Positions 2,867 to 21,647 of a stretch of DNA of 23,708 bases are shown one piece after another. Under the pieces are notes generated by a model. The model searched no databases. It saw only the letters and a program-made list of their open reading frames with translations, and had not been told where the DNA came from. The stretch comes from a virus, in the IMG/VR virus record IMGVR_UViG_3300043436_000404, positions 1-23,708 of that record; one strand, written 5' to 3'. How positions within the stretch are numbered: position 1 is the stretch's first letter; every line of letters starts with the position of its first letter. A program made the translations under genes and the position numbers.

Positions 2867-2874
2867 GAGGAATC

Positions 2875-4779
2875 TTGACGGACTACAACCGTTACAATAA
2901 GGACAGTGTGGTGATGTTCGGCAACGTGCAGGCAACTGCCGGTCCCGCCGACCTTGCCAGCATTCGCTCCATGTACGACCGTCTGAAGTCACGGTTCTCA
3001 GAGCGCGACCAGCGTATGCAGAACGTTCTCGCTGTACGCCAGGGCCGTATGCGCGACGTGTACCCCGAACTGTTCCCCGATGGCCCGTTTGATCGTGGCA
3101 TTGTAGCGAACATGGTGGACGTGGCGGCACGTGATCTTGCCGAGGTACTGGCACCACTGCCCTCATTCAACTGCTCAGCTTCGTCCATGACTTCGGACAA
3201 GGCACGCGAGTTCGCTGACATTCGCACCAAGATCGTTAACGGCTACGTTGACATCTCGGACATGCAGAAGCAGATGTACACCGCTGCCGACCGCTATTTC
3301 ACGTACGGTTTCGTCCCAGCAATGGTCGAGATCGACATGAACAAGATGACACCGCGCATCAAGTTTTTCGACTCCATCGGCTCCTACCCCGTCTTTGATC
3401 GCTGGGGAAACGTTGAAGCCTGCTACTTCACGTTCTACAAGACTCGTGACGAACTGCTCGGAATGTACCCCGAAGCGAAGGGTGCTCTTGAGCGTCCAGG
3501 TGCTGGCAGTGACCGTGTAGAGGTAGTTCGCTACCACGACAAGCACGTAGACGTACTGTACTTGGCGCAGGACCAGAACGGTCTTGTCCTTGAGGCAGCA
3601 AAGAACCCCATCGGTCAGTGCATGGTTGTGTGGACTCAGCGCCCTGGTGTTGACGACGACTCACATGGACAGTTCGATGACGTTCTTGCAGTGCAGGTTG
3701 CTAAGGCACGCTTCGCGCTGCTGTCCCTTGAGGCTGCACAGAAGGCAGTCCAGGCACCTATCGTTCTACCGCCCGACGCACAGGAACTCGCATTCGGTTC
3801 GGACTCCATTATCCGTACCGCTAACGGTGACCGTGTTCGCCGCGTACCCATTGAGGTGCCGCAGGCGGCATTCGCCCAGCAGGGTGTACTGGATCAGGAA
3901 CTTCGCCAGGGTTCACGCTACCCCAACGCCCGTAGTGGCGAGGTAGACGGTTCCACTGTCACGGGTCGTGGCGTTCAGGCACTCATGTCTGGCTTCGATA
4001 CGCAGATCCGTACAGGCCAGTCCATGTTCGCTAGGTCCATTCGTGACCTGATTATGATGTGCTTCGAAGTTGACGAAAAGCTCTTCGGTGACATGAAGAA
4101 GGTCATGCGTGGAAATGCCGACGGCACCCCGTATGAAATCAAGTACACTCCCAGCAAGGACATCAAGGGTGACCATACGGTCGATGTCCAGTACGGTCTC
4201 ATGGCCGGACTTGACCCCAACCGTGCTCTCGTGTTTGGTCTCCAGGCACGAGGTGATCGTCTCATTTCACGAGACTTCCTGCGTAGGCAGATGCCATTCG
4301 CGTTGAACGCGACCGAAGAGGAACAGCGTGTTGACATCGAAGAGATGCGGGACGCGTTGAAGCAGGCCGTTGCAGGCTATGCTCAGGCAATTCCGGTACT
4401 AGCCCAGAACGGGCAAGATCCGGGTGACATTCTGTCACGCCTCTCTGCCATTATTATCGGTCGGCAACGTGGTAAGTCCATCGAAGAAGTGGTGGCACAG
4501 GCGTTTGAACCGCAGGAGATTCCCACGCCACCGGGTGCGGGTGAAGCCATGGCAGCAGGCCCAGGAGAAATGGGCGCTCCAGGTGAAGTACCCCCCGGTG
4601 GTGGCGGGGGTGGCCTTGAGGGTCTTGGCGAGGGTTCTGGTTTGATGCGTGGTGTTGCACCTGGTCAGGCTGGTATGGCTCCTGGTGGTCGCCCTGATCT
4701 TCAGATGCTTATGGCTTCCCTTGGTGCTGGTGGGGAACCGAATCTTACTGCTGGCGTTTCGCGCCGTCTACCGATCTAG
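2875..4779 (+). CDS. Portal protein
   Basis: Forms the dodecameric ring at the packaging vertex. I choose the TTG at 2875 because a strong AGGAGG (2865-2870) lies just upstream, overlapping the terminase stop. The upstream ATG at 2845 would overlap the terminase and has no such site. The protein is then 634 aa, typical for portals of short-tailed phages. The N-terminal half has the alternating helices and beta strands of a portal wing/stem, with aromatic segments around YFTYGFVPAMVEIDM. A region with VTGRGVQALMSGFDTQI and following helices fits the stem/crown. The last ~100 residues are Pro/Gly-rich with a run of six glycines and are probably disordered. Position next to terL supports the call. 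Identification rests on context and general resemblance rather than an invariant motif. Confidence 0.88.
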   Translation: MTDYNRYNKDSVVMFGNVQATAGPADLASIRSMYDRLKSRFSERDQRMQNVLAVRQGRMRDVYPELFPDGPFDRGIVANMVDVAARDLAEVLAPLPSFNCSASSMTSDKAREFADIRTKIVNGYVDISDMQKQMYTAADRYFTYGFVPAMVEIDMNKMTPRIKFFDSIGSYPVFDRWGNVEACYFTFYKTRDELLGMYPEAKGALERPGAGSDRVEVVRYHDKHVDVLYLAQDQNGLVLEAAKNPIGQCMVVWTQRPGVDDDSHGQFDDVLAVQVAKARFALLSLEAAQKAVQAPIVLPPDAQELAFGSDSIIRTANGDRVRRVPIEVPQAAFAQQGVLDQELRQGSRYPNARSGEVDGSTVTGRGVQALMSGFDTQIRTGQSMFARSIRDLIMMCFEVDEKLFGDMKKVMRGNADGTPYEIKYTPSKDIKGDHTVDVQYGLMAGLDPNRALVFGLQARGDRLISRDFLRRQMPFALNATEEEQRVDIEEMRDALKQAVAGYAQAIPVLAQNGQDPGDILSRLSAIIIGRQRGKSIEEVVAQAFEPQEIPTPPGAGEAMAAGPGEMGAPGEVPPGGGGGGLEGLGEGSGLMRGVAPGQAGMAPGGRPDLQMLMASLGAGGEPNLTAGVSRRLPI

Positions 4780-4787
4780 GGAGTGTA

Positions 4788-4979
4788 ATGCCTGCTAAGA
4801 AGAAGTCCAAGGTTGAGAAGGTCATGCACGAGTTCAAGACTGGAACGCTACATAGTGGCAAGAAGGGTCCAGTTGTGAAGAACAAGAAGCAGGCTATTGC
4901 TATCGCATTGTCGGAGGCCGGCAAGTCTAAGCCTGCCGCCAAGAAGACCGCTAAGAAGACCATGAAGAAGGGTAAGTAG
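4788..4979 (+). CDS. DUF6496-like small basic protein (63 aa)
   Basis: The start at 4788 has GGGAG at 4780-4784, overlapping the stop of the portal gene. Residues about 9-45 match what I know of DUF6496: a VMHEFKTGTLHSG core followed by KQAIAIALSEAG. The function of this family is unknown; members are common in phages and bacteria as short Lys-rich proteins. The C-terminus is a lysine tail (KKTAKKTMKKGK), giving 20 lysines in 63 residues. The last codons (GAAGGG) form the ribosome binding site of the next gene. A DNA-binding or internal capsid role is possible but unproven. Confidence 0.85.
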   Translation: MPAKKKSKVEKVMHEFKTGTLHSGKKGPVVKNKKQAIAIALSEAGKSKPAAKKTAKKTMKKGK

Positions 4980-4981
4980 TT

Positions 4982-5539
4982 ATGGCTCCGAAGAAGGACC
5001 CCAACTTTGGTGCTCAGGGTAAGCTGGGTGGCATGGGTGGCAAGTACGGTCGTAAGGCCGAGAACCTTACCAACAAGGAGTTGAAGGCTGCTGGTGGCGC
5101 TAAGGCTGCCGCTACCCGCAAGGTAGACATTTCGCAGACCAAGCGTGACACCACTCGTGGTATTACTCTTGGCCCGAAGGGTAAGCCGCTGACGGGCAAG
5201 GTAGTTCTTCAGAATGGCAATACTGCCGTGTACAAGGATGGCAAGCGAGTTGTTGCTGCCAAGAAGTCTACTTCTCCGAATAAGAATAACGGCAAGGATA
5301 CATCGGTTAGTGCTGCTGATCGTGCTCGCGCTGCGGCGATGAAGTCCGGCAAGGCTGATGCCGCTAAGCGTTCTGCTGCTGGCGTTGACAAGGCTCCTAA
5401 CGCTGCGCGTAAGGCTGCCTCTAACGCAGATGCGAAGAAGCGCGTTACTAAGAATACTGAAGCAAAGCAATATAAAAGCGCTTGGACCGAGCCAATAACT
5501 TGGGATGGCTTTCGTAATTTCATGAATCGTGGAAGGTAA
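4982..5539 (+). CDS. Basic low-complexity protein (185 aa)
   Basis: The start at 4982 is two bases after the previous stop, with GAAGGG at 4967-4972. The protein begins MAPKKDPNFG, then a Gly-rich stretch, a small beta-like part (KGKPLTGKVVLQNGNTAVY, about residues 60-78), then an Ala/Lys/Arg-rich, probably disordered or helical part. The final ~25 residues (from about KQYKSAWTEP) differ: they are aromatic and are written in AT-richer codons (ATA, CAA, TAT, AAA), which suggests a separate module or recent recombination. No known family. General architecture resembles the 194-aa protein at 399, but low complexity makes homology uncertain. Confidence 0.75.
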   Translation: MAPKKDPNFGAQGKLGGMGGKYGRKAENLTNKELKAAGGAKAAATRKVDISQTKRDTTRGITLGPKGKPLTGKVVLQNGNTAVYKDGKRVVAAKKSTSPNKNNGKDTSVSAADRARAAAMKSGKADAAKRSAAGVDKAPNAARKAASNADAKKRVTKNTEAKQYKSAWTEPITWDGFRNFMNRGR

Positions 5540-5545
5540 TTAGTT

Positions 5546-5683
5546 ATGTGTATCCAGTGTGGATGTGGCAAGAAGATGGGCCAGGGTCGCGGTATTCCGC
5601 AGGCCGCTTCCGTTCCCACGTACGATCCGATGGCTAAGCCGTGGACCTCTCATGAGGAAATGGAAGACTCCAAGGAGAAGTAG
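5546..5683 (+). CDS. Cys-rich micro-protein (45 aa)
   Basis: The ATG at 5546 is preceded by GGAAGG (5531-5536), which is encoded by the last codons of the upstream gene. The product begins MCIQCGCGKKMGQG: cysteines at 2, 5 and 7 make a CxxCxC cluster that could bind a metal ion, although a fourth ligand is not obvious. The second half is Pro-containing and acidic (SHEEMEDSKEK). The stop TAG at 5681-5683 overlaps the GTG of the next gene (TAGTG), so coupling is likely. No family recognised. Good ribosome binding sites on both sides and the absence of any other use of this gap support it as a gene. Confidence 0.65.
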   Translation: MCIQCGCGKKMGQGRGIPQAASVPTYDPMAKPWTSHEEMEDSKEK

Positions 5684-5946
5684 TGCCTAATCAAGATCCA
5701 CGCCTCAAGCGTGCAGGTGTTGAAGGCTACAACAAGCCGAAACGCACACCAAGTCACCCCACTAAGTCACACGTTGTTGTGGCGAAGGAAGGCGACAAAG
5801 TGAAGACTATTCGTTTCGGGCAGCAGGGCGTGACGGGTGACCGTCAACCGACTAAGCGTCAAGCTTCGTTTAAGGCTCGCCATGCTGAGAACATTGCTAA
5901 AGGTAAAATGTCAGCAGCCTATTGGGCTAACAAAGTTAAGTGGTAA
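5683..5946 (+). CDS. Small basic phage protein with ASFKARHAENI motif (87 aa)
   Basis: The GTG start at 5683 overlaps the upstream stop and has AAGGAG at 5672-5677. The N-terminal part is Pro/Lys-rich. The part from about residue 32 reads VVVAKEGDKVKTIRFGQQGV, and the C-terminus has ASFKARHAENI and AAYWANKVKW. This pattern (short basic protein, FGQQG strand, F-x-A-R-H helix, terminal W/K-rich segment) matches a family of small conserved phage proteins I associate with DUF5872-like entries. The family name is from memory and should be treated as tentative. Its function is unknown to me. It is the most conserved-looking of the small genes here. Confidence 0.8.
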   Translation: MPNQDPRLKRAGVEGYNKPKRTPSHPTKSHVVVAKEGDKVKTIRFGQQGVTGDRQPTKRQASFKARHAENIAKGKMSAAYWANKVKW

Positions 5947-6121: not shown

Positions 6122-6409
6122 ATGCGCGGATTATCGAACGACATTCACTGTCACATTTCATATGGCGATATCCGTGTAGCGATGGTCGCGGAGGGCTGTT
6201 CATGGTCGCCTGACGTTGCTCGCGATATCACCAACCGTACTGCCGAGGTGTGGCATAACACGCTTCTGGAGTTGTACCGGTTCGGTATGTTGGAGCAGCC
6301 CTCCGATGAAGAATACGAAGACGACGATGAAGATGACGATATCGGTGTCACCTTCAATGAGAAGCTTATACACGAGCGTATCGTGAGATTGGAAGGCGAA
6401 GATGGCTGA
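6122..6409 (+). CDS. Small protein with acidic tail region (95 aa)
   Basis: The ATG at 6122 follows GAGGGAG (6111-6117). The N-terminal ~60 residues look folded and helical (VAMVAEGCSWSPDVARDITN, then an amphipathic helix ending ELYRFGMLEQ). Residues about 61-73 are almost purely acidic (EEYEDDDEDDD), followed by a short helical end. The acidic segment contrasts strongly with the basic proteins encoded around it and could pair with them or mimic DNA; this is speculation. Its 3' end overlaps the next gene by 8 bases. No family is recognised. Confidence 0.75.
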   Translation: MRGLSNDIHCHISYGDIRVAMVAEGCSWSPDVARDITNRTAEVWHNTLLELYRFGMLEQPSDEEYEDDDEDDDIGVTFNEKLIHERIVRLEGEDG

Positions 6410-6884
6410 TAGGCGTGGAGGTATGCGTACTCCCAGTAGCCCCGCACCAGTCTCAGGACCAGGTGCTCTTTCTCGCCGTACCGATGGTGGACCGCAGCAG
6501 CAGACCACGAAGATGACTGGTATGGCTTATGGTGAGAATGCTGACTATAACGATATGCAGCAGTCTGCACCGATGTCTGCTTCACAGTCAGCCAAGTCTC
6601 CCGCCGTTCAGCGCCGTCAGGCACAGACGACCGGCAAGAAAGCCGCTTCAGCGAAGCCGCTGTTCTCCCCGACTGACCGTCCCGAGGAGCCCGTTACCGC
6701 GGGTGCCCCGTTCGGTCCTGGTGATGGCCCGACCATGCAGCCTGGTGTCGGCGCTATCGCCACGTCAGATGCTAAGGGTCTCGCTAAGTATCTTCCTCAG
6801 ATGATGACGATGGCTGGCGATCCGAATACTCCGGATGGTTTCAAGCGTTTCGTGCGTCATCTGCGTAACATGCAAGGAGCGTAA
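6402..6884 (+). CDS. Hypothetical protein (160 aa), disordered N-terminus
   Basis: Begins MADRRGGMRTPSSP inside the 3' end of the previous gene. Residues 1-120 are rich in Pro, Gln, Ser, Thr and Gly and probably lack fixed structure. The last ~45 residues (DAKGLAKYLPQMMTM, then PDGFKRFVRHLRNMQGA) look like two helices. No family recognised. The codons for the final QGA together with the stop make CAAGGAGCGTAATG (6873-6886), which carries the Shine-Dalgarno and the start of the next gene. Possibly a small virion or assembly factor, given its position. Confidence 0.75.
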   Translation: MADRRGGMRTPSSPAPVSGPGALSRRTDGGPQQQTTKMTGMAYGENADYNDMQQSAPMSASQSAKSPAVQRRQAQTTGKKAASAKPLFSPTDRPEEPVTAGAPFGPGDGPTMQPGVGAIATSDAKGLAKYLPQMMTMAGDPNTPDGFKRFVRHLRNMQGA

Positions 6885-7036
6885 TGCCTCGCTTTGTTGA
6901 CAACATCGACGCTGTTGTGGCGAAGATTGGTACCGAGAATGTTGGCCTCGTCTGGGGTCTTGCTAACGTCAACTGGGATAGTGACGTTGAGCGTGATGAT
7001 TTTTTGAATACGATTACTACTCCTCAAGGAGCGTAA
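6884..7036 (+). CDS. Small acidic protein (50 aa)
   Basis: The start ATG overlaps the previous stop (TAATG, 6882-6886) and AAGGAG lies at 6874-6879. The product, MPRFVDNIDAVVAKIGTENV at its start, is predicted to form one or two helices with a central hydrophobic stretch (GLVWGLANVNW) and an acidic end. It finishes PQGA, and these codons form CAAGGAGCGTAAATG (7025-7039), the ribosome binding site and start of the 1648-aa gene. No family is recognised. Translational coupling to the giant gene is likely. Confidence 0.7.
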   Translation: MPRFVDNIDAVVAKIGTENVGLVWGLANVNWDSDVERDDFLNTITTPQGA

Positions 7037-10000
7037 ATGGCTGAAGCTCCAAAGCGGTGGAAGAACCGTGACCCGTTGGCTTGGGACAGTGCTCCCACTG
7101 CTGACGCGGCGGTTCCTTCCGCTACTGAGTCGCCTTACGCTAATCCTGCGGATTTTGATATTAATGCTCCTGTTCCTGGACGGCCTTCCGTTCCTGATCT
7201 TGAAGAGCAGATTCCGCAGAACGCTAAGGACAATTCCCTTCTGGGTAGTTTCCTCAATGTCATGGACAATATTGTTCCCGATGACATGGGTGGTCTTGTC
7301 CGTGGTAGTTCGGGCTGGCTCGGTAACGTTCCTCTTTACGAGGAGACTGTTGGTCGTGTAGCTGGTGCTCCCCTTTCTGCCGCAGAGACGGCATTGAACG
7401 TTGTCAACTGGGGCAGCGAGCAGATGAACCATCTCGGTGCTGCACTGTTTTCGGCTCTGCCTGGTGGTATTCAGACTCTGGACTGGGAGCAGGCTCAGGA
7501 CATTAGCACGGGCCAGGTGTTGACCGCTAACTCTGCTATCAATGCCGGCGACGGTGCTGGTGGTTGGCTGATCAACATTTTCACTTCGCCTATCACGTCA
7601 ATCGCTACCACTATTGGTCAGAACCAAGATCCAGGTAACGTACTGTATTCGGACGAGTTCAACATTCTTGACCCGGAGATGCGTGAGGAAGCATTCTCTG
7701 AGGGTGCAGGCATGTGGTCGTCGGGTATCCTTGACGCTATCTGGCTTGTCGCTGCTGACCCCACCATTGTTGGTGGAAAGGTTACGAACGTTATTCGTTT
7801 CGGTACCAAGGTTGGCGAGTTCGGTGGCATGACGAACCAGGCTCTGCGTACCGCTGATCAGGTTGAACGTTTCGCCAATACTCTTGATGAGCAGGCTGCT
7901 ATCATTGCCGAGCTCGGTGTTGAGGGCGCACGTTCGAGTGGTCGCCTTACGGCTGAGGGTGAGAATCTGATCTCCGCTATGGAGGGTCAGGTTGACGATC
8001 TAGTTAACCATCCGTGGGTGAAGAACTCTACAAGCAAGCGCGACACCCGTGCTCTTCTTGCCGAGGTAACCACTGCCGATCCTATTGAGGCTGCTAACCT
8101 TGCTGGCGCTCTTGCCGGTAACCCCGCCTCGTGGGGTCGTCTGCGTACTGACAGTGCCGAACTGTATGATGCTGCTGCTCGTGCAATGAACATTGATATC
8201 TTCGGGCCGACACCGGGTGCAGCAGTTGATCCGGCAACTATTGGCGTAAGAATGACCGACGATCAAATCGGTATTGCTGACGACATCACTGACGAAGTTC
8301 TCGCTACTGGTGTAGATGTTCCAGTGCGTCCGTCTGATATGGATGTACTCCCCGCTGGTCAAATGATTGAGCGTGGAGGTTCACGGGTTGGTGCTCGCAC
8401 TACACGTGCCGCGAATGCTTGGCGACGTGGCGCACGGTCCAACCAGTTCTCCAACAACGCTTTCAAGAAGTCATCTTCAGTTAACCCGACCAAGGGGAAC
8501 TACACCTATGACGTTATTGAGGGTATTGCTGGTTCGCGTCCGGTTCGCGTTGTTCGCTGGCTAGGACAAGGAACGCCTAATGGTATCGTTAATCTTAAGA
8601 ACGGTGCGGATAGTTCAACTTCTCTCGACGAGGTTTCAGCTTATCTGCGCAAGTCTCCGATTGATCAGGCTCGGGCTTCCGCTTACATAAATGAGTTTGC
8701 TGCTGCTCGCGATGTAAATACGCGCAAGAGCATTCTCGAAAGAATCGAGCAGGATACTGTAGACAGTATTGCGGCGAAGCAGGGTGTACCACCAGAGACT
8801 GCACGCAAGCTTTACAATCAGTACGCAGCACGTAGAGGTGCCGTGCTTGATAACTCCGCTAGAAGCAAGAACAACATCTCGGTTGATCCCGATACTGGCG
8901 AGATTATTAAGATGCCAGATTTCTATGCAGAACTTGACCAGGCATACCCGCTTGTTGACATCAAGATGTTTAGCCGTGTTATCAAGGATAACCCGTGGCT
9001 TCGGACTAGTGAGGATGTCAGTCTTGCTGCTGACTACATCAACAGTCTGTGGAAGGTTAGTGTTCTTGCACGTCTCGGCTACACGCAGCGTAACCTTGCG
9101 GAAGGTGCTTTGCGTTCGTTTGCTGTTCTTGGTGCGATTGCCGCCAATCCGAAAGCCTTGGCTCAGCTTCCTTCCAACGCGAAGTATTACGCTCTTACTC
9201 GTCGTGGAGTAAAGGGTATCCGTGCAAAGGAAAAGAACCTGATGGGTTCTTACGATGATCTTCAGAATGCTAGAAACTTTCTAGATGAGGGTCTTGAAGT
9301 AGCACGCTTTGACGAGATGCAAAGATTGCGATTTCAAGCGAATGACATTGAGACGAATATAAAGAATCTTCGTCTGGCTGATCCAGTTAAGAATGCTAAG
9401 GAAATAAGGAAGCTTCAGCGTCGGGCCGAACGACTCACCAAGGATGCTGACGGCATCCGTGATGACTTTGTTCTTCCCATGATTCCTGAATTAACAGAAT
9501 CACGTCAGGCTATTGCCGCTATCGAAGGGCAGATCGACAATCTCAGTAACGAAATCCTTGATTCAGTCAAGAAGGTTCGTGAGATTTCCAAGAATCGAAA
9601 GACTGCCGGTCGCCAGGGCAATGTCATGGATGACGGTACTGAACTCCTCGGTGCATTCCAGGGTGGCGAGGGTGCCATTGCTGCACTTGCATCTTCCGCT
9701 GACCGCACTGCGTACATGACGTTTAATGCTGGTGCGAGTAGCCGTATCCAGGCCCTTGACGCTCTAGCAGAGTACAAGCCGATGGACCCGCGCAAGCTTA
9801 AGCCAGAGCAGATGCAGGTATACTTTGACGAGTATACTCTCCGCATCAATAACCGTTACCGTGAGGATACGGTCGGCAAGATGGTCCTTGAGGATCGTCC
9901 CGTTGAAGATATTAAGGCTTGGCTTCTGTCGCCTGCTGGAAGCAGTTACAGGCAGAATCTTTCTATTGCCGGTCGTCGTCTTGATTCCGAGCAGCAGGTT

Positions 10001-11983
10001 GACGCATACGTTGACAGTCTTGTTCGTCGTCTTGATAACGAGATGCCTTCGGACACTAACCTTCGCCAGATGGCACTTGACCATGAGTTGACTTCTGCCG
10101 AGGTTGCGGCTGCTCTTCGTGGTCGCGAACTTCCCGTTATTCCTGGCCGTCTTGCCGATGAGGTACTTAGCCCTGGTCTTGGTAAGCGAACTAAGCGCGG
10201 AATTGATACCGTCACGGATACGCTCATGCGTTACCTTGGTAGCATCCCTGAGACAAAAATGCTTCGCCATCCCTTCTATGACAACATCTACCGCGCTAAG
10301 CAGGCAGAGTTGTGGAAGCGCGGAGTTGCTCAGGGGCAAGAAGTTTCTAGTGAGGCGTTTAAGGCTGGCATCAACACTGCTTCTCACCGTGCAGCACTGA
10401 AGGCCACGAAGGAGACACTGTACACGATTGATCGTCTGTCGAATGCGGCAACGATGCTTCGCTTCGTGTCACCGTTCTTCCCTGCTTTTGAGAACAGCAT
10501 TCGCACTTGGGGTCGTCTTGCTTGGCAGAATCCTGCACTCATTGGTGAAGGTAATCTGCTGTGGAATATCCCGAACAACTTTGGTTGGGTCGTGGATAAG
10601 AATGGCGAGAAGGTTGAGCGATCCAACTTCCTTAAGGATGAGGGTAACTACATCATCTGGCCCGAGGCTGTCGCTAACGTCCTAAAGTCCAAGCTGGGTC
10701 CGTTCACTCCTGGTGAAGCGCTGATGACTCCGCAGCAGGGCTTTAACGTTCTATTCCCTGGCGGAAACTTCTGGTTCCCTGGTGTCGGTCCTGCTACTCA
10801 GATTCCTACCGCTTGGCTTTTGAGAACCAGGCCAGAGGATGCTGAGATTATTCGCAACGCGGTGGGCGAAGAAATGTTTAGGCAGTTGGTTCCGGGTGGT
10901 AACCCGAACGCTGACTTGACTGATGCTCTTCTTCCGACTGGTGTTCGTAGAATGAAGCAGATGCTTTCTGGTGATACATCCGATACTGCATTCCTCACTA
11001 ACTGGAATCAGATGATTGAGGACGAGTACATCACTGCACAGCTTGAGGGTCGCACGATGACCGAGGCTGACATGAAGAAGGTTCAGGAGAAGGCTGACCG
11101 TTTCTGGCGTTGGCAGGTTGCTGCAGCATATGTCATGCCGTTTCAGTCGAAGTCTGCATCTAAGTACCAGTTGGAACGCGACGCATGGAACCGTCTGATT
11201 GATGACGAGACGCTGAGTTACCAGGAGAAGTTAAAGCGATTCAACGATCAGTACCCTGGCTTTGATGCCATCACTCGTTCGGGTTCGTACACTGAGACTA
11301 AGCTTCAGCCGAATCTTTCTACGTGGCAGAAGATCACGAAGAACCCCGAGACGGTTGATCGTCTTTACGCTATCAATCCCGAACTGGTCGGCATGTTCGG
11401 CAACATGGGTTCGTTTGATGACCCGTTCTCTTACTCTGTCTACGGAGAGTTCCAGAACATGCGGATCGGCCCGAACCAGGCGAAGGTTAGCCGGAAGATG
11501 ACTCCGCAGGAGATCATTCGTAATAACCAGTTGAAGGATGGTTGGAGCGAATACTGGCAGGTCAAGGACTATGTTGAAGAACAGGTCATCAAGAATGGTT
11601 ACAGCAGTCTTCAGGTGAAGGACGCTGAGCCTTTCCGTCAAATCCTTGAAGATGCCGCTGTCAAGCTTGGTGAGCGTTACCCCGCTTGGGGCGAGGAGCG
11701 CAAGTCTTACGAGGACAAACTTCCAGACTTTATCAATGGTGCTCGTATCATCGCGGAGAATCCTGAACTGGTTGGCGAGGACACCACGATTGCCACGCTT
11801 CGTGACTACCTCGAAGTTCGCGAATATGTCTCTGACGCTTTGAAGAATACTGACGATCAGGACGCTAGGGATGAGTTGAAACTTGTCGGCTACGAAGCGG
11901 CCTGGAAGTTACGCCAGAAGGATATTGGTTTCGCTGACTTCTATGACCAGTATCTTTACCGTGACGATTTTAGGAGTATCTAA
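7037..11983 (+). CDS. Giant structural protein (1648 aa), candidate internal virion/ejection protein
   Basis: The start at 7037 has CAAGGAG immediately upstream. The N-terminal ~100 residues are Pro-rich and probably extended. Helical regions with amphipathic or hydrophobic segments follow: about 175-197 (WLINIFTSPITSIATTIG), about 230-248 (ILDAIWLVAADPTIVGG) and about 672-705 (VLARLGYTQRNLAEG). About 735-860 is a long charged coiled coil. About 1136-1167 holds FVSPFFPAFENSIRTWGRLA, a segment I recall from very large proteins of actinobacterial phages. A Pro/Trp/Phe-rich stretch lies near 1241-1262. I see no protease, lysozyme/transglycosylase or polymerase motif. Size, helical content and association with three helical companions suggest a DNA-ejection or internal head protein. 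A tape-measure-like or portal-vertex role is the alternative. Confidence 0.75.
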   Translation: MAEAPKRWKNRDPLAWDSAPTADAAVPSATESPYANPADFDINAPVPGRPSVPDLEEQIPQNAKDNSLLGSFLNVMDNIVPDDMGGLVRGSSGWLGNVPLYEETVGRVAGAPLSAAETALNVVNWGSEQMNHLGAALFSALPGGIQTLDWEQAQDISTGQVLTANSAINAGDGAGGWLINIFTSPITSIATTIGQNQDPGNVLYSDEFNILDPEMREEAFSEGAGMWSSGILDAIWLVAADPTIVGGKVTNVIRFGTKVGEFGGMTNQALRTADQVERFANTLDEQAAIIAELGVEGARSSGRLTAEGENLISAMEGQVDDLVNHPWVKNSTSKRDTRALLAEVTTADPIEAANLAGALAGNPASWGRLRTDSAELYDAAARAMNIDIFGPTPGAAVDPATIGVRMTDDQIGIADDITDEVLATGVDVPVRPSDMDVLPAGQMIERGGSRVGARTTRAANAWRRGARSNQFSNNAFKKSSSVNPTKGNYTYDVIEGIAGSRPVRVVRWLGQGTPNGIVNLKNGADSSTSLDEVSAYLRKSPIDQARASAYINEFAAARDVNTRKSILERIEQDTVDSIAAKQGVPPETARKLYNQYAARRGAVLDNSARSKNNISVDPDTGEIIKMPDFYAELDQAYPLVDIKMFSRVIKDNPWLRTSEDVSLAADYINSLWKVSVLARLGYTQRNLAEGALRSFAVLGAIAANPKALAQLPSNAKYYALTRRGVKGIRAKEKNLMGSYDDLQNARNFLDEGLEVARFDEMQRLRFQANDIETNIKNLRLADPVKNAKEIRKLQRRAERLTKDADGIRDDFVLPMIPELTESRQAIAAIEGQIDNLSNEILDSVKKVREISKNRKTAGRQGNVMDDGTELLGAFQGGEGAIAALASSADRTAYMTFNAGASSRIQALDALAEYKPMDPRKLKPEQMQVYFDEYTLRINNRYREDTVGKMVLEDRPVEDIKAWLLSPAGSSYRQNLSIAGRRLDSEQQVDAYVDSLVRRLDNEMPSDTNLRQMALDHELTSAEVAAALRGRELPVIPGRLADEVLSPGLGKRTKRGIDTVTDTLMRYLGSIPETKMLRHPFYDNIYRAKQAELWKRGVAQGQEVSSEAFKAGINTASHRAALKATKETLYTIDRLSNAATMLRFVSPFFPAFENSIRTWGRLAWQNPALIGEGNLLWNIPNNFGWVVDKNGEKVERSNFLKDEGNYIIWPEAVANVLKSKLGPFTPGEALMTPQQGFNVLFPGGNFWFPGVGPATQIPTAWLLRTRPEDAEIIRNAVGEEMFRQLVPGGNPNADLTDALLPTGVRRMKQMLSGDTSDTAFLTNWNQMIEDEYITAQLEGRTMTEADMKKVQEKADRFWRWQVAAAYVMPFQSKSASKYQLERDAWNRLIDDETLSYQEKLKRFNDQYPGFDAITRSGSYTETKLQPNLSTWQKITKNPETVDRLYAINPELVGMFGNMGSFDDPFSYSVYGEFQNMRIGPNQAKVSRKMTPQEIIRNNQLKDGWSEYWQVKDYVEEQVIKNGYSSLQVKDAEPFRQILEDAAVKLGERYPAWGEERKSYEDKLPDFINGARIIAENPELVGEDTTIATLRDYLEVREYVSDALKNTDDQDARDELKLVGYEAAWKLRQKDIGFADFYDQYLYRDDFRSI

Positions 11984-12759
11984 TGGCTGGCGATATTGTT
12001 GCCGACGCTAAGGCTAAGGCTGGTGCTATTACTGGCGGTGCTGGTAGTGGCAAGTCTGTATGGTTGGGTAGCGGTAAGGGTAGCACTACTAGCACGTACA
12101 GTGGCGGTGTCCCGATTACTACCCCGTCGCAGAACTATTCTACTGTTGAGAAGATGCAGAACAGTATCATCTCTTGGGGTGCTGCACGTTCACCAATGTA
12201 TGACACTTACGTTAGCAAGCTGATCAACGGTGGCTTCATGTCAAAGACCTTTGCCGATCAGCCCCTAACCGCCGCTAAGGCTCTTGAGAGTGCCGTTGAA
12301 ATGTTCCAGTCGTACAACGGTACTGGTGGAACTCTTGGCTTCGACGACTGGTTTGACTGGTATTCAAGCACTGGCACTGGTGGCAAGTCTGGTGGTCGTG
12401 GTGGATACAGTGGTCCGGTAACAACTACAACTACTACCGTGTACGACGACCGTGCCGCTGAGACTGTTCTTCAGAAGATGGCTCGTGAAACGTTTGGTCG
12501 TAACCTGACAAAGAGTGAGGCTAAGCGTTACGCAACTGAACTCCAGAGGGCGCAGCGAGAGAATCCTGCCGTTACTCGTTCCGAGGGTACTGGTGCTTCC
12601 CGTTCCAGTATGACCACTTCCGCTGTCGGTGGAGAGGTTCTGGCGCAGGATCTTCTGACCGCTGAGGACGAGGCTATTGATTTTGCTGCTGAGAGCACTG
12701 GTCTTGACCAGATGTGGAATAGCATCAACCGAGGACTGGATGTGATGTATGGCCGCTAA
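11983..12759 (+). CDS. Virion-associated helical protein candidate (258 aa)
   Basis: The start overlaps the giant gene's stop (TAATG), with AGGAG at 11972-11976. The first ~50 residues are Gly/Ser/Thr-rich. About 56-110 is a helical domain (KMQNSIISWGAARSPMYDTY, then helices ending SAVEMFQSYN and FDDWFDW). About 125-155 is a Gly/Thr linker, including a run of threonines. About 155-258 is a second helical domain (ETVLQKMARETFGRNLTKSE and on). No enzyme motif is seen. The two-domain layout with linker, and its position in a block with the 1648-, 306- and 369-aa genes, suggest it works with them in the particle. Its 3' end overlaps the next gene by 11 bases. Confidence 0.7.
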   Translation: MAGDIVADAKAKAGAITGGAGSGKSVWLGSGKGSTTSTYSGGVPITTPSQNYSTVEKMQNSIISWGAARSPMYDTYVSKLINGGFMSKTFADQPLTAAKALESAVEMFQSYNGTGGTLGFDDWFDWYSSTGTGGKSGGRGGYSGPVTTTTTTVYDDRAAETVLQKMARETFGRNLTKSEAKRYATELQRAQRENPAVTRSEGTGASRSSMTTSAVGGEVLAQDLLTAEDEAIDFAAESTGLDQMWNSINRGLDVMYGR

Positions 12760-13669
12760 GCCGAAGCCGAAGAAGCCGGCAGAGAACTGGACTACTCAGG
12801 CTTTCAAGAATGGTTACAACAAGGCTCTCATTGATACCGACACCACTGGCTCCTTGAAGGAGTTCTGGGACTGGTGGCGTAGCGAGTTTAAGAAGTACGG
12901 CGAAGCCCCCACTCAGGAGGCCGTTGATCGTCGCATGGATCAGACGCAGTGGTATGCGGAACGTACTGCTGCTCAGGAGCGTGCTGCTCTTCAGGAGATT
13001 GAGAACCCTGAAGACTTCAAGGCCAGTGTTGAGATTGTCAAGTCTAGCCTTCGCGAGACTCTTGACGCTCTTGGCATTGAGTATGATGACGCTTACCTGA
13101 CTCAGGTTGCTCGTGACTCTAAGATCAATGGTTGGAGTCCTGACCAGATCAAGCAGAGTGTTGTTCCTCGAATTGAGGAGCAGATCAAGGCTGGTGGCGA
13201 TCTTCGCGGTAAGGCTGGTGACTACCAGACTGAACTGATGAAGTGGTCTAAGGCTAACGGTATCGCGTTGACGAACGAGGCCGCTGCAGCGTTCATTTCT
13301 CGTGGTGCTACCGGTGCCCAGTCACTTGATGACGCTAAGCAGGAACTGCGTGACATGTATCTGGTTGGTGCGTATCCGGCTTGGAGCGACAAGATCCGTG
13401 AGGGTTACGACCCGTCTGTTCTTGCTGCACCGTACAAGACTGTTGCTGAGAACTTGCTGGAGCTTGGCGAGAACCAACTCGGAATGAATGACCAACTGAT
13501 GCAGAAGGCCATGCAGGGTGTCGGTGCTGACGGTAAGCCTGCGGTTGTTCCGATCTGGGAGTTTGAGAAGCAGGTTCGTGCTGATCCTCGCTGGCAGAAG
13601 ACCGATAACGCCTATAAGACGTATACGGATGTCGGTACGGATATCCTTCGAATGTTTGGGTTTAGGTGA
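12749..13669 (+). CDS. Virion-associated helical protein candidate (306 aa)
   Basis: The ATG at 12749 lies inside the end of the previous gene. After a short basic, Pro-rich start (MAAKPKPKKPAENW) the protein is almost entirely helical and charged. Near the C-terminus it has a distinctive segment, PIWEFEKQVRADPRWQKTDN, followed by DILRMFGFR at the end. I recall the W-[DE]-F-x3-[LV]-R-x-DPRW pattern from structural proteins of actinobacterial and aquatic phages, but I do not know an assigned function. No catalytic motif seen. Context suggests an internal or vertex component acting with the giant protein. Confidence 0.7.
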   Translation: MAAKPKPKKPAENWTTQAFKNGYNKALIDTDTTGSLKEFWDWWRSEFKKYGEAPTQEAVDRRMDQTQWYAERTAAQERAALQEIENPEDFKASVEIVKSSLRETLDALGIEYDDAYLTQVARDSKINGWSPDQIKQSVVPRIEEQIKAGGDLRGKAGDYQTELMKWSKANGIALTNEAAAAFISRGATGAQSLDDAKQELRDMYLVGAYPAWSDKIREGYDPSVLAAPYKTVAENLLELGENQLGMNDQLMQKAMQGVGADGKPAVVPIWEFEKQVRADPRWQKTDNAYKTYTDVGTDILRMFGFR

Positions 13670-13674
13670 TCTGA

Positions 13675-14784
13675 GTGGCTGTTAAGAAGAAGACTGGTCC
13701 CACTACTGGTCCTGCTACTGGCTTGCTTGACGCAATGAAGGCTGCTTCCGATGCCGCCGCTACACAGAGGGCATCTCAACTGGCCCTGCAGAAGGATGCC
13801 GCTATTGCTGCTGGTATCACTGGAGGTGCGGCTTCCGCTGCTGCTAAGCCGGTTGCTGCAGCCAAGACTGCTGAGGAACTTTATTGGGAGAATGAGACTC
13901 GTCTTGCTAACGAGAGGGCGGTATCGCAGGATCGCGCCAATCGTGAAGACGCTAAGTCTTTCCTGAACTCCATGCTTGCGCAGTACGGTTTGGGTTCCCT
14001 CGCTGGCGAGGTTGACCGTCTTGTAAACGAGTGGGGCACCCAGACTGGTGTCATCGCTGAGAAGATCAAGACGACTGAACCGTACAAGGTTCGCTTCAAG
14101 GGTCTTACTGCGATGCAGGCTAAGGGTATTACCGACATTGCCAACGAAGCTGACTATATTCGTCTTGAGTCTAACTACCGTCAGGCTTTCCGTGAGGCAG
14201 GCTTGCAGTCATTCCTCGGTGCCGCTGGTGCCCAGTCTGAGATTGATTCTATTGCTCGACTCGCTGGTGACTTCTCCGTATCGGTAAACGAGGTTCGGGA
14301 TCGTATCACGGATGCACAGCGTGTGATTGCGGATACCCCGCAGGAGGTTCGGGATTCACTTCAGCGTTACTACAACGTTGATCCTGCCACTCTCGTGTCG
14401 TACGTTCTTGATCCGACTAAGACTTCTTCGCAGGTGAACCGTCTCGCTAATACTGCGATCATCGGTGGTTACGGTCGCCGTGCCGGTCTTGACGTTAGCC
14501 TTGAGGGTGCCGGCGGAATGTCTGACCTGGCTCAAGGTAATGATCTTAACCTTGACCTGTTGCAGACTGATCTTGCTGCTGCTCGCACGATCCGTGACGA
14601 GACTAAGCGTCTTGCTCAGATCGAGGGACAGGATCTCACGGATACTGAGGCTTTCCAGGCACAGTTGAAGACTAGTGCTGAGGCTGAGCAGAAGGTCAAG
14701 AGACTTCAGTCTAGTGAGCGTGGACGTTTTGGTGGATCTTCTGGATTCGCAAAGGGCGCATTGTCGCGTCCGACAGTGTTCTAA
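13675..14784 (+). CDS. Virion-associated helical protein candidate (369 aa)
   Basis: GTG start at 13675, five bases after the previous stop; the ribosome binding site (TAGGTGAT) is weak, and coupling to upstream translation may help. The N-terminus is Lys/Thr/Pro/Gly-rich, then Ala-rich helices (about 15-65). About 125-230 is a conserved-looking helical region (FKGLTAMQAKGITDIANEAD, then ESNYRQAFREAGLQSF). A segment YYNVDPATLVSYVLDP lies about 222-237. The C-terminus is a coiled coil followed by SSERGRFGGSSGFAKGALSR, a glycine-containing tail I recall from comparable proteins of other phages. No lysozyme motif is seen. It is the last gene before the tRNA. Confidence 0.7.
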   Translation: MAVKKKTGPTTGPATGLLDAMKAASDAAATQRASQLALQKDAAIAAGITGGAASAAAKPVAAAKTAEELYWENETRLANERAVSQDRANREDAKSFLNSMLAQYGLGSLAGEVDRLVNEWGTQTGVIAEKIKTTEPYKVRFKGLTAMQAKGITDIANEADYIRLESNYRQAFREAGLQSFLGAAGAQSEIDSIARLAGDFSVSVNEVRDRITDAQRVIADTPQEVRDSLQRYYNVDPATLVSYVLDPTKTSSQVNRLANTAIIGGYGRRAGLDVSLEGAGGMSDLAQGNDLNLDLLQTDLAAARTIRDETKRLAQIEGQDLTDTEAFQAQLKTSAEAEQKVKRLQSSERGRFGGSSGFAKGALSRPTVF

Positions 14785-14793
14785 ATAGAACAC

Positions 14794-14872
14794 CCGTAGC
14801 AAGCCCCAAGGTGGGGCAGCAGGCTGTAAACCTGTCGCTTAGGCACGCAAGGTTCGATTCCTTGGCTACGGA
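14794..14872 (+). tRNA. tRNA-Tyr (anticodon GTA)
   Basis: A complete cloverleaf can be drawn. The acceptor stem CCGTAGC (14794-14800) pairs with GCTACGG (14865-14871), with discriminator A at 14872. A short D arm GCC/GGC has an AAGG loop. The anticodon stem GCAGG/CCTGT encloses loop CTGTAAA with anticodon GTA at 14826-14828. A 12-base variable arm fits a bacterial class II tRNA-Tyr. The T arm CAAGG/CCTTG has loop TTCGATT. CCA is not encoded. The A26-GCAGR-CTGTAAA region resembles E. coli tRNA-Tyr. The first linker base (normally U8) is A here. The gene lies between the virion-protein block and the scaffold; it could aid translation, act as an RNA-processing point, or both. Confidence 0.88.
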
Positions 14873-14875
14873 CTC

Positions 14876-14900
14876 TCGTCAGACCGACCGGCCCTGACGA
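14876..14900 (+). repeat. Hairpin just 3' of the tRNA
   Basis: TCGTCAG (14876-14882) and CTGACGA (14894-14900) are a perfect 7-bp inverted repeat around an 11-base GC-rich loop. No T-run follows, so it is a poor intrinsic terminator. It may guide processing of the tRNA 3' end or protect the transcript. Confidence 0.5.
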
Positions 14901-14924
14901 TGCAAAGACCGGTAGCAATAGCCA

Positions 14925-14972
14925 CATTCATCTCCCCTGGTGGGTGTGTGGATTGCGTAACACTAATGAATG
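14925..14972 (+). promoter_or_regulatory. Inverted repeat in the scaffold gene leader
   Basis: CATTCAT (14925-14931) and ATGAATG (14966-14972) are perfect 7-bp complements separated by 34 bases. The 3' arm abuts GGGAG, the Shine-Dalgarno of the scaffold gene. Folding could change access to the ribosome binding site. The stem is AT-rich and the loop long, so it may also be chance. Confidence 0.3.
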
Positions 14973-14983
14973 GGAGTAATAAA

Positions 14984-15490
14984 ATGGCCGACAATTACGA
15001 CTGGGAAGATGACGACGACGACTTCGAGTCACCGTCAAAGGGAAGCACCGATGTTCTTAAGGAACTTCGTAAGGCTAACCGTGCTAAGGAACGGCAACTG
15101 AAGGAACTTCAGGACCAGCTTAACCAGATGCAGTCTTCTGTTCGTGAACGGTCAGTTAAGGACGTGCTTGAGTCCAAGGGTTTGAACAGCAAGATTGCTG
15201 CTTTCATCCCGAAGGATATCACGTCTGCTGATGATGTCGCAGCGTGGGTGGACGAATACGGTGACGTGTTCGGTGCCACCAATGCCGTGGACTCAAGCGA
15301 GGCCGAATCCTCGCCGGCTCAGTTTAACCCTGAGCTTGCTGCTTTGAATCGGATTTCCCAGGCACAGTCCTCGGGTCAACCGTTCTCAAGCGACCCGGCC
15401 CAGATTGCAGCGCAGATTGCGTCTGCTTCCAGCATTGAAGAACTGAACATGCTTCTGTTCAAGAATGCTGCTGGACCAAACGTATCGTAA
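14984..15490 (+). CDS. Head scaffolding protein
   Basis: Scaffold proteins guide capsid assembly and then leave. I choose the ATG at 14984 (GGGAG at 14972-14976) over the in-frame ATG at 14900, which lies in the hairpin next to the tRNA. The protein is then 168 aa and begins MADNYDWEDDDDDFESPSKG, an acidic start typical of scaffolds in actinobacterial phages. A charged coiled coil follows at about residues 23-55 (ELRKANRAKERQLKELQDQL), then a helical region and a Ser/Gln/Pro-rich, probably disordered part, with a short helix near the C-terminus (SIEELNMLLF). It directly precedes the major capsid gene, the usual place for a scaffold. No protease motif is present. Confidence 0.85.
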   Translation: MADNYDWEDDDDDFESPSKGSTDVLKELRKANRAKERQLKELQDQLNQMQSSVRERSVKDVLESKGLNSKIAAFIPKDITSADDVAAWVDEYGDVFGATNAVDSSEAESSPAQFNPELAALNRISQAQSSGQPFSSDPAQIAAQIASASSIEELNMLLFKNAAGPNVS

Positions 15491-15498
15491 ACGATACG
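15481..15498 (+). repeat. Perfect palindrome across the scaffold stop
   Basis: CGTATCGT (15481-15488) and ACGATACG (15491-15498) are perfect complements around AA, foldable as a 7-bp stem with a TAAA tetraloop. It contains the scaffold stop codon and lies 26 bases before the capsid Shine-Dalgarno. Without a T-run it is not a standard terminator. It may be an RNase processing or stability site separating scaffold from capsid expression, or a protein-binding palindrome. Confidence 0.5.
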
Positions 15499-15523
15499 GC
15501 CTATCCAATTATAACTCACCATT

Positions 15524-15532
15524 AGGAGGTGA
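15524..15532 (+). promoter_or_regulatory. Near-perfect Shine-Dalgarno of the capsid gene
   Basis: AGGAGGTGA matches the anti-Shine-Dalgarno end of 16S rRNA over nine bases and lies nine bases before the ATG at 15542. It is the strongest ribosome binding site in the window, as expected for the most abundant virion protein. Confidence 0.85.
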
Positions 15533-15541
15533 CAACGCAAC

Positions 15542-16471
15542 ATGGCTAACGCATATACTGATACCACTGCGCTTGCTGGTCTCGTTAAGACCGCTTACGA
15601 CCGCTACGTTGAGTTCGCTCTTCGTTCGCAGCCGCTGTTCCGCAACCTTGCCGACAAGCGCCCCGTCCAGCAGGCAATGCCCGGTTCGTCCGTGGTGTTC
15701 TCCCTGTACAATGATCTCGCTGCACAGACCAGCACTCTCACTGAGACTGTTGATCCCGATGCCGTGGCGATCAGCAACGTTGATACCGTTTCGGTTACCC
15801 TGAACGAGTACGGCAACGTCGTCCTGAACACCCGTAAGCTTGGCGAGTTCGCTTTCTCGGACGTTGATCCGGGTGTTGCGAACATCGTTGCTTACAACAT
15901 GGCTGACTCGATCGACAAGATTGTCGTGAACGTCCTCCGTGCAGGCACGAACGTTCTCTACGGTGGCGATGCTGCTGCAACGAACCAGATTGTTGCCGCT
16001 GATACCGCTACTGCTGCTCTCGTGTCGAAGGCTGTCGCGAAGCTTCGTGGCGCTAACGCTGTCCCGCGTGACGGAATGCTGTACGCAGCATACGTTCACC
16101 CGGACGTGGCGTTCGATCTCCGTGCCGAGTCCGGTTCGGGTTCGTTCGATGACATCCGTAAGTACACCGAGGGCAACGTCGGTAACATCCTCGGTGGTGT
16201 TATGGGCGTTCTCGGTGGTGCGTACTTCGTGGAGACCCCGCGTGCGTACGTTGCTACCGATGGTGCTTCTTCGGAGCCCGTCTACCGTACGATCATCGCT
16301 GGCAAGCAGGCTCTCGCTGAGGCGACTGCTGTTGAGCCCGGTGTGGTGCTCGGCCCGGTCGTTGACAAGCTGCAGCGTTTCCGTCCGGTCGGCTGGTACA
16401 GCCTGCAGGGCTGGAGCCGTTACCGCGAAGAGGCTCTGTACCGCATTGAGTCTTCGTCCAGCATCTCCTAG
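15542..16471 (+). CDS. Major capsid protein (N4-gp56-like family)
   Basis: Main shell protein of the icosahedral head. The 309-aa product begins MANAYTDTTALAGLVKTAYD and carries segments I recognise from N4-gp56-family capsid proteins of actinobacterial phages: YVEFALRSQPLFRNLADKRP, GSSVVFSLYNDLAAQTSTL, LNEYGNVVLNTRKL, then a helix near ADSIDKIVVNVLRAG (the long spine-type helix expected of an HK97-like fold), YAAYVHPDVAFDLRAE, and a C-terminal PVGWYSLQGWSRYREEALYR. No prohead-protease domain or cleavage site is obvious. The codon use is highly biased (CGT, GGT, AAC, AAG, TTC), fitting high expression. It sits directly after the scaffold and has hairpins on both sides. Confidence 0.93.
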   Translation: MANAYTDTTALAGLVKTAYDRYVEFALRSQPLFRNLADKRPVQQAMPGSSVVFSLYNDLAAQTSTLTETVDPDAVAISNVDTVSVTLNEYGNVVLNTRKLGEFAFSDVDPGVANIVAYNMADSIDKIVVNVLRAGTNVLYGGDAAATNQIVAADTATAALVSKAVAKLRGANAVPRDGMLYAAYVHPDVAFDLRAESGSGSFDDIRKYTEGNVGNILGGVMGVLGGAYFVETPRAYVATDGASSEPVYRTIIAGKQALAEATAVEPGVVLGPVVDKLQRFRPVGWYSLQGWSRYREEALYRIESSSSIS

Positions 16472-16488
16472 TTTCTAGGAACGCTATC

Positions 16489-16525
16489 GGCGGGGGGTCA
16501 CGGTTAAAAGCCGTGGCCCTCCGTC
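16489..16525 (+). terminator. Strong 15-bp hairpin after the capsid gene
   Basis: GGCGGGGGGTCACGG (16489-16503) pairs with CCGTGGCCCTCCGTC (16511-16525) with three G-U pairs and a seven-base loop, TTAAAAG. It starts 17 bases after the capsid stop and ends 24 bases before the next ATG. It lacks a following T-tract (TACTCAATAATCTTT follows at 16526-16540), so termination may be partial. It may also serve as a 3'-end stabiliser that raises capsid mRNA levels relative to downstream genes. Confidence 0.6.
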
Positions 16526-16549
16526 TACTCAATAATCTTTGGAGAGTAA

Positions 16550-16819
16550 ATGTCGTATTACCTTGATCTGCCTACGAGCCTAGAATCGTATACGGACAAT
16601 ATTCTCCTGTCTCGTTTCCCCATTGATCACGGTATCTCACTGTTGATTACAGAGTCTGGGGCCACGTTCACTGGTTTACTTCAGCAGTTCCCTGACCAGG
16701 TTCAGGTTCGTAACGCTACGTATTACTACGCCGGTGGACATTACTACGTTCTTACACAGCCAGAGATTGATGCTATTACTGCTGCTGGTTTCGAGGATCT
16801 TATCAAGGAGATCGTGTGA
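16550..16819 (+). CDS. Small protein downstream of capsid (89 aa)
   Basis: The ATG at 16550 has TTTGGAGAG just upstream. The product starts MSYYLDLPTSLESYTDNILL and contains beta-prone stretches rich in tyrosine (VRNATYYYAGGHYYVLTQPE) and a C-terminal helix (EIDAITAAGFEDLIKEIV). No family is recognised. Position suggests a small head or head-completion component. The stop overlaps the GTG of the next gene (GTGA, 16816-16819), implying coupled translation. Confidence 0.75.
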   Translation: MSYYLDLPTSLESYTDNILLSRFPIDHGISLLITESGATFTGLLQQFPDQVQVRNATYYYAGGHYYVLTQPEIDAITAAGFEDLIKEIV

Positions 16820-17139
16820 ATTGTCGCTCGGGTTGCCGAACTAAAGATCATGCTTCGTATGCAGAATGTCTGCAGTCTGCGAACGTGACCATTGCCGGCA
16901 CGATCAACAGTCCCTTGCAGTCCATGTATGAGGACACTAAGCGGGATCTTCGTGACTACAAGCAGGCTCGTGCTGACGGTATCCGTCCCGAGGGTACGAG
17001 TGGTGCAAAGATCAAGGCAGCAATGGAGGCGACGAAACTTCTCGGTCGCCCGTATGACTCGCAGAAGGATGCTCCTGCGTCAATGATTAATTCCAAGAAT
17101 ACGGCTAAGGCCGCTAACCTTATTGCGAGTGATGCCTAA
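16816..17139 (+). CDS. Small protein with Cys/His motif (107 aa)
   Basis: GTG start overlapping the upstream stop, with AAGGAG at 16804-16809. The N-terminus MNCRSGCRTKDHASYAECL places C3, C7, H12 and C18 in a CX3CX4HX5C arrangement, close to a zinc-knuckle spacing (CX2CX4HX4C) but not identical. I recall similar starts in small proteins of other actinobacterial phages but no function. The rest is helical and charged (SMYEDTKRDLRDYKQARADG) with an Ala/Asn/Lys-rich end. Metal binding is a prediction. The gene lies between capsid and connector genes and ends in a TAATG overlap with the next. Confidence 0.75.
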   Translation: MNCRSGCRTKDHASYAECLQSANVTIAGTINSPLQSMYEDTKRDLRDYKQARADGIRPEGTSGAKIKAAMEATKLLGRPYDSQKDAPASMINSKNTAKAANLIASDA

Positions 17140-21634: not shown

Positions 21635-21647
21635 GGATTAGGGACTC

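Follow-up and report, generated by a model that had tools for sequence, protein, structure and literature searches.

Four genes between portal and scaffold

The window analysed here, the 23,708 nt of virus record IMGVR_UViG_3300043436_000404, is probably a fragment and carries the structural region of a short-tailed phage. Between its portal and scaffold genes lie four open reading frames (ORFs), all on the plus strand and set end to end, which occupy 7,748 of the 23,708 bases (33%), from position 7037 to 14784, exactly as a first-pass annotation of the sequence had described them. The first (7037-11983) encodes a giant protein of 1648 amino acids (aa) that matches phrog_10618 (E 5e-69). It is followed by a 258-aa companion (11983-12759), a 306-aa protein (12749-13669) that aligns with positions 185-425 of the 428 of the phrog_6654 profile (E 2e-32), and a 369-aa companion (13675-14784; phrog_8424, E 5e-41). 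Within the block, adjacent genes abut, overlap or are separated by a few bases, in an operon-like manner. Because all four proteins are kept in independent relatives, at 22-59% protein identity, we take the four ORFs as genes and not as chance reading frames.

A DNA-level search of phage records with the window gave no match. By protein, the giant has matches in 29 Streptomyces phage records, to which it is 22% identical, and in 'Caudovirales sp. ct2KA10' (OX376641). The latter is phage F5, and its sister OX376640 is phage E7; both were isolated on 'Ca. Planktophila' LanE-43, a freshwater actinobacterium (PMC10202952). IMG/VR added nine close relatives (giant 43-59% identical) and more than 140 further loci found via alignments. 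Judging from these relatives, the host of the window phage is most likely an actinobacterium. No relative of the giant turned up in the 84,980 genomes of bacteria and archaea that were scanned, hence no prophage or host link comes from there. The capsid also matches those of Bacillus megaterium podophages (~31% identity), in which portal and capsid genes are no more than 1 kb apart and do not enclose a giant.

Gene order was counted by running profiles of the window genes on all loci, some of which overlap, so that the counts are not independent. The portal gene precedes the giant in 82/82 loci and the giant precedes the scaffold gene in all 79 that have both; the 306-aa gene stands before the 369-aa gene in 126/126 loci, and the latter before the capsid gene in each of the 128 loci having both. 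A small 160-aa gene (6402-6884 in the window, plus strand) lies 5' of the giant wherever both are present (97/97 loci). The operon order portal, giant, companions, scaffold, capsid, adaptor has zero exceptions, Streptomyces phages included. The first-pass annotation had noted that the internal virion proteins of T7- and N4-like phages usually come after the capsid and tail genes, and had called the present arrangement uncommon if the block encodes ejection proteins. The former is correct for all four records that we checked (T7, P22, N4 and SU10), and the placement of the block is indeed unusual against these textbook phages, but it is standard in its own lineage, where it is the rule (79/79 loci). 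Nor is the apparatus undescribed, as had been thought possible: it is already present in described genomes, cultured Streptomyces phages included, under the labels 'hypothetical' or 'minor tail protein'. As the arrangement is thus established for the lineage, what is new lies elsewhere, in the wall hydrolases carried by homologues of the 306-aa protein in the same slot, in the behaviour of the block as a recurrently exchanged recombination cassette, and in the identity of a genomic island of E7 and F5.

Types of the giant and domains of its companions

Sequence searches of PDB and Pfam with the giant found no relative, and the PDB search with the block proteins tested returned nothing credible, only weak coiled-coil or chance matches. 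A Pfam scan of all four proteins gave no domain above its cut-off, in keeping with the earlier statement that they show no known enzyme motif. Structure models, for which an alignment without rows from phage records was built, cover two of the four. AlphaFold2 predicts the C-terminal 1057 aa of the giant (residues 592-1648) to be mostly helix with long coiled coils (predicted local distance difference test, pLDDT, 79; predicted template modelling score, pTM, 0.55), and the 306-aa protein to be all-helical, with 19 helices and no strand of three or more residues (pLDDT 93). The helical nature attributed to the block by the first-pass annotation is thereby borne out for the two proteins modelled. 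In fold searches the giant model had no PDB match at E ≤ 0.001, with Z-scores for coiled coils and helical bundles only, and the 306-aa model had none either (best E 0.9, best Z 4.2 over 52 residues). Against a viral library the giant model gave seven matches at E ≤ 0.001, all unannotated or uncharacterized, one of them from Streptomyces phage Manuel.

The possibility that the giant is absent from the close relatives L090-L096 was considered and rejected, as these phages carry a second, highly diverged giant (type B, the window giant being type A). Compared by HHalign with type B giants, the type A profile gave probabilities of 86-96% (E 5e-6 to 1e-9) over window residues ~1018-1325, encoded at 10088-11011 (plus strand), and BLASTP of the window giant against that of L096 aligned residues 1135-1342 (E 2e-6). 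These matches indicate that the two types are homologous in this core. Giants of both types span about 1550-2756 aa across loci, and no giant tested has an enzyme domain. The candidate of a virion RNA polymerase, similar to N4 gp50, was likewise rejected (HHalign probability 0.3%, no domain). We also observed that the same slot holds giants of 2756 aa in L082 (3863-12133), 2589 aa in L061 (9239-17008) and 2559 aa in L064 (5522-13201), with an extra 900-1100 residues; a Pfam scan of those of L082 and L061 found no domain.

The family of the 306-aa protein is more telling. In this slot, Streptomyces phages have two paralogues of ~433 aa which share their C-terminal phrog_6654 core with the window protein, and whose N-termini are an NlpC/P60 peptidase (1e-29) or an SLT transglycosylase (6e-7). 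Among metagenomic relatives, the N-terminal domain is SLT_3 in L050 (1e-27) and CHAP in L026 (1e-8). Over 101 family members we counted 25 NlpC/P60, 14 SLT, 5 SLT_3 and 1 CHAP matches, which may overlap. Peptidase, transglycosylase and empty forms alternate on one phrog_6654 core, and the window protein is the portion that follows the hydrolase domain of its relatives. The occurrence of various peptidoglycan cutters on one helical core, in a virion operon, is best explained by a subunit that would reach the cell wall. The 258-aa companion has the same position in relatives, and its family is fused with the 306-aa family in a single gene in the type B cassettes of L090 (8691-9995) and L091 (8394-9722) (profile E ~1e-32 to 1e-36), which suggests that the two proteins associate physically.

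The Beephvirinae (Streptomyces podophages Manuel, RosePharie, Stella and FlowerPower) have the same succession of portal, small genes, giant (1635-1646 aa), companions, tRNAs, scaffold, capsid and adaptor, and the families of the window giant, 306-aa protein and 369-aa protein (phrog_10618, 6654 and 8424) are represented in them too. They differ from the window by their two phrog_6654 paralogues with NlpC/P60 and SLT domains, by ~20 transfer RNA (tRNA) genes against one, and by an endolysin gene between terminase and portal, where the window has none. Since its single phrog_6654 paralogue is devoid of an enzyme domain, we consider the window a variant and not a member of this group.

Replacement of the block among near-identical heads

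In L091 and L092 the portal is 99% identical to that of the window at the protein level, the scaffold 92-93%, the capsid 93-94% and the adaptor 96-97%. With blastn, the window and L092 align at 96% and 89% up to position 6728, not at all through 14077, and at 90% from 14078. Thus 7,349 bp of the window (6729-14077, plus strand) are replaced in L091/L092 by an unalignable segment of 7,363 bp, encoding an 1829-aa giant of the other type and a 442-aa protein in which the 258- and 306-aa families are fused. The right junction is soft in the window (~14080-14300), identity being 52-74% at ~14085-14300 and above 80% after. The natural unit is slightly larger than the four-gene block, as it starts inside the small gene at 6402-6884.

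The same kind of replacement is found throughout the lineage. Among locus pairs with a capsid identity of at least 92%, the giants are at most 30% identical in 16 of 45, and in these swapped pairs the 258-aa protein, if present in both phages, does not exceed 39% identity. On a capsid tree (a quick tree, with support by the Shimodaira-Hasegawa-like approximate likelihood ratio test, SH-aLRT, only), the A/B label of the giant needs 9 changes, at least 6 of which are forced by well-supported branches. The whole set has apparently been exchanged between phages repeatedly and as a unit.

The junctions, which are approximate because they were taken from BLAST ends, recur as well. On the left, DNA homology stops inside the 160-aa gene in 12 of 13 pairs, usually with ~45-60 of its residues still to come. 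On the right, most pairs regain it within the final third of the 306-aa gene and/or the initial third of the 369-aa gene. Over the final fifth of the 160-aa protein, the median identity is 24% in swapped pairs versus 97% in unswapped ones; over the N-terminal two fifths of the 306-aa protein, identity is 22-27% versus 79-83%. The C-terminal ~50 residues of the 160-aa protein travel with the giant, and this linked inheritance of a gene end could come from recombination in conserved DNA as well as from a need for matched partners. Some swapped pairs (L143/L144 for example) retain a similar 306-aa protein, and the giant and the 258-aa protein therefore form the constant centre of the exchange. 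In the 369-aa protein, the C-terminal two thirds are conserved along with the head genes and the N-terminal third is variable. Co-inheritance of this N-terminus with the giant was rejected, as it is equally variable in unswapped pairs; it is apparently fast-evolving, and is not evidence of linkage.

A further case is provided by phages E7 and F5, for which an '8-kbp island' has been published without explanation, with three or four hypothetical proteins that have no homologues in the other of the two phages (PMC10202952). The flanks of the two phages are 96-98% identical, and we found no similarity between E7 8373-16921 (L166) and F5 16486-24752 (L005), a stretch which begins a little way into the 160-aa gene and ends where the 369-aa gene ends. 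The published island is this cassette. Both phages have the same operon as the window, the giant being of type A in F5 and of type B in E7; they differ from it in that a single gene combines the 258- and 306-aa families, and the window portal is only 45% identical to that of F5. Because the two types of giant are homologous in their core by profile, the published wording of 'no homologues' holds for pairwise search only. Furthermore, since E7 and F5 infect one host strain, the type of cassette is not simply a matter of host specificity.

What kind of proteins would be exchanged in this way? Among phages with near-identical heads, two of which share a host strain, the giants are extremely diverse, as would be expected of an arms race. 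It could thus be envisaged that the giant is mainly an injected cargo acting in the host, for anti-defence or takeover, that its companions serve to load it, and that it takes no part in a DNA conduit. However, no enzyme domain was found in any giant tested, the 258-aa protein and the N-terminal part of the 306-aa protein are usually exchanged along with the giant, and the wall hydrolases of the relatives' cassettes point to the envelope, and we consider this explanation improbable. Still less likely, in our opinion, is that the four proteins are head-assembly factors, accessory to portal or scaffold and staying in the head. Their position between these two genes and the conserved linkage to both would suit this role, but one would not expect assembly factors, matched to a constant portal, scaffold and capsid, to be exchanged more than any other part of the head operon, and wall hydrolase domains in one of the families have no obvious place in assembly.

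Role of the block and neighbouring features

Our preferred explanation is that the block encodes a virion protein set of a short-tailed actinobacterial phage, probably an ejection (wall-penetration) complex, exchanged as one cassette. Such a complex fits because a variable, matched set is carried by a constant head, because relatives have wall enzymes in the set, and because of the helical build and the one very large subunit. That these are ejection proteins, as the first-pass annotation had proposed, remains the best reading, in the sense of a complex analogous to the T7 and P22 ejection proteins and not demonstrably homologous to them. The giant and its helical companions would be packaged near the portal and would leave through the short tail ahead of the DNA, and the ejected proteins would then form or line a path through the cell wall. 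In the Streptomyces-type relatives, subunits of the 306-aa family would supply a peptidase and a lytic transglycosylase for local digestion of the wall; in the window lineage, this subunit would consist of the helical core only. The 160-aa protein, whose N-terminal part would stay linked to the head while its C-terminal end moves with the giant, would serve as a docking piece connecting the variable complex to the constant head.

Several points weigh against an ejection complex. We found no virion proteomics or cryo-electron microscopy for any relative, and a podoviral particle has been documented for Abafar, one of the Streptomyces relatives, but not for the phage of the window. Wall hydrolases occur on tail tips too and so are no proof of ejection; moreover, the Pfam scan of the window block found no hydrolase domain, and the wall-digesting domain common in ejection sets is present only in same-family relatives. 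Hydropathy of the four proteins gave no transmembrane-like segment, in contrast to T7 gp14. HHalign of the four family profiles against 26 reference proteins gave probabilities of at most 2.5% for all ejection proteins of T7 (gp14-16), P22 (gp7, gp20, gp16), N4 (gp50-52) and SU10 (gp20-24), and the gene order is unlike that of these four phages. The remote homology search that had been advised against T7 gp14-16 and the P22 and N4 proteins thus yielded no match; clear homology to a different function was not found either. Finally, the fold searches of both models gave no convincing match to solved proteins, although absence from such lists is compatible with a shared fold.

The most serious alternative is an external tail-tip or tail-knob apparatus which, in the manner of the phi29-like tail-tip hydrolases, would digest the wall from outside and stay on the particle. 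Tail nozzles and knobs are rich in beta structure, and the proteins modelled here are helical. Moreover, the genes lie between portal and scaffold, distant from the adaptor and fibre genes, and the set is exchanged while the adaptor remains 97% identical in the window/L091 pair. We consequently regard this apparatus as unlikely, even though the Streptomyces homologues are annotated 'minor tail protein', NlpC/P60 and SLT domains are found in tail proteins also (the tail families phrog_329 and phrog_400 match that domain), and nothing in the rest of the window was identified as a nozzle or hub protein. It would also agree with the Gram-positive hosts of the relatives, since phi29-like phages of such hosts lack ejection proteins according to a 2022 review (PMC8954989).

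The ejection complex that we favour can be compared with known systems. It is mainly in phages of Gram-negative hosts that ejection proteins are known. A mostly helical build with one very large subunit, characteristic of these complexes, is found in the window for the two of four proteins modelled, the giant in its C-terminal part. T7 gp14-16 and the PhiM1 ejectosome, whose helical build has been noted (PMC11440229), also combine a large subunit with smaller ones and have a wall-digesting domain that moves between subunits (PMC8954989, PMC11440229); no sequence or fold match to them was found for the block, which has another gene order and in which no transmembrane-like counterpart of gp14 is seen. 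Such a wall-digesting domain is common and not strictly defining, P22 and Sf6 being without the T7 gp16 domain (PMC8954989). SU10 (Kuravirus) has a similar make-up to that of the block, gp20-24 being a transglycosylase and proteins of 350, 322, 551 and 1473 aa, and the window adaptor (17139-18032) falls in the SU10 adaptor family (PF24175, 2e-7). The SU10 ejection proteins leave the virion on genome release (PMC9509320). Nevertheless, homology to the SU10 proteins is not detectable, the giant reaching a probability of 2.5% against gp24 over one 133-column stretch, and the SU10 genes come after the tail genes.

P22 offers a precedent for the exchange, as gp7/gp20/gp16 form a virion protein set that is very diverse between related phages and exchangeable as a set, with matched partners (PMC10883804); they have no sequence similarity to the block, are of other sizes and are encoded after the coat and tail genes. 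Foreign ejection-protein sets work together in P22, but gp16 and gp20 have to be matched and exchanged jointly, and changes in the ejection proteins are selected by SieA, an exclusion protein (PMC10883804). We advance more tentatively, as an idea that may well prove wrong, that actinobacterial podophages possess an ejection machine of their own, unrelated in sequence to those of T7, P22 and N4, which passes DNA through a Gram-positive-type wall. It would be an interchangeable cassette with a recurrent left junction in a small upstream protein, swapped wholesale among near-identical heads, probably to escape exclusion or defence at DNA entry, and would explain one of the two hypervariable islands in the first phages of 'Ca. 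Nanopelagicales' to be cultured. If true, ejection proteins as a class would come to include a dedicated, rapidly exchanged set carried by phages of Streptomyces and of freshwater actinobacteria that are very abundant, a published genomic island of unexplained meaning would gain a function (PMC10202952), and the study of how phages diversify in lakes would turn from tail fibres to the step of DNA entry. The idea lends itself to direct testing, because E7 and F5 share one cultured host strain and the island is largely what distinguishes them, and because the Streptomyces relatives grow on laboratory strains.

The block is preceded by the terminase (986-2866) and portal (2845-4779; phrog_104, 2e-22) genes, and five small genes lie between portal and giant in the window. 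Beside the terminase and portal genes are four small, very lysine-rich proteins (148-396, 399-983, 4788-4979 and 4982-5539) that look like basic DNA-binding or virion proteins. The 63-aa and 87-aa proteins at 4788-4979 and 5683-5946 are 67% and 89% identical to proteins of F5, where their genes lie between capsid and adaptor (L005 27764-27949 and 27949-28203); given their position before the giant in the window, these two genes have changed place within the operon. ARAGORN predicts a tRNA-Tyr(gta) (14794-14873, plus strand) at the 3' edge of the cassette. This single tRNA-Tyr sits between cassette and scaffold gene, where Streptomyces relatives hold arrays of ~20 tRNAs, and is common to the window and L091/L092 and absent from the other aquatic relatives scanned. 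Then come the scaffold (ORF 14900-15490, likely start 14984; phrog_7813, 8e-35, with weak scaffold-family matches) and the capsid (15542-16471; PF13252, 1e-12; phrog_1357, 1e-76).

In L013 and L112, several kb lie between capsid and adaptor, and the adaptor is 32% identical to that of the window for a capsid identity of 78-79%, which suggests a second exchange region there. The window also encodes fibre-like and glycine-rich proteins. Two long glycine-rich proteins of 569 and 534 aa, with repeated modules, lie at 19925-23252 and show patchy similarity to L092; this region may be the counterpart of the second, fibre-related variable island of E7 and F5.

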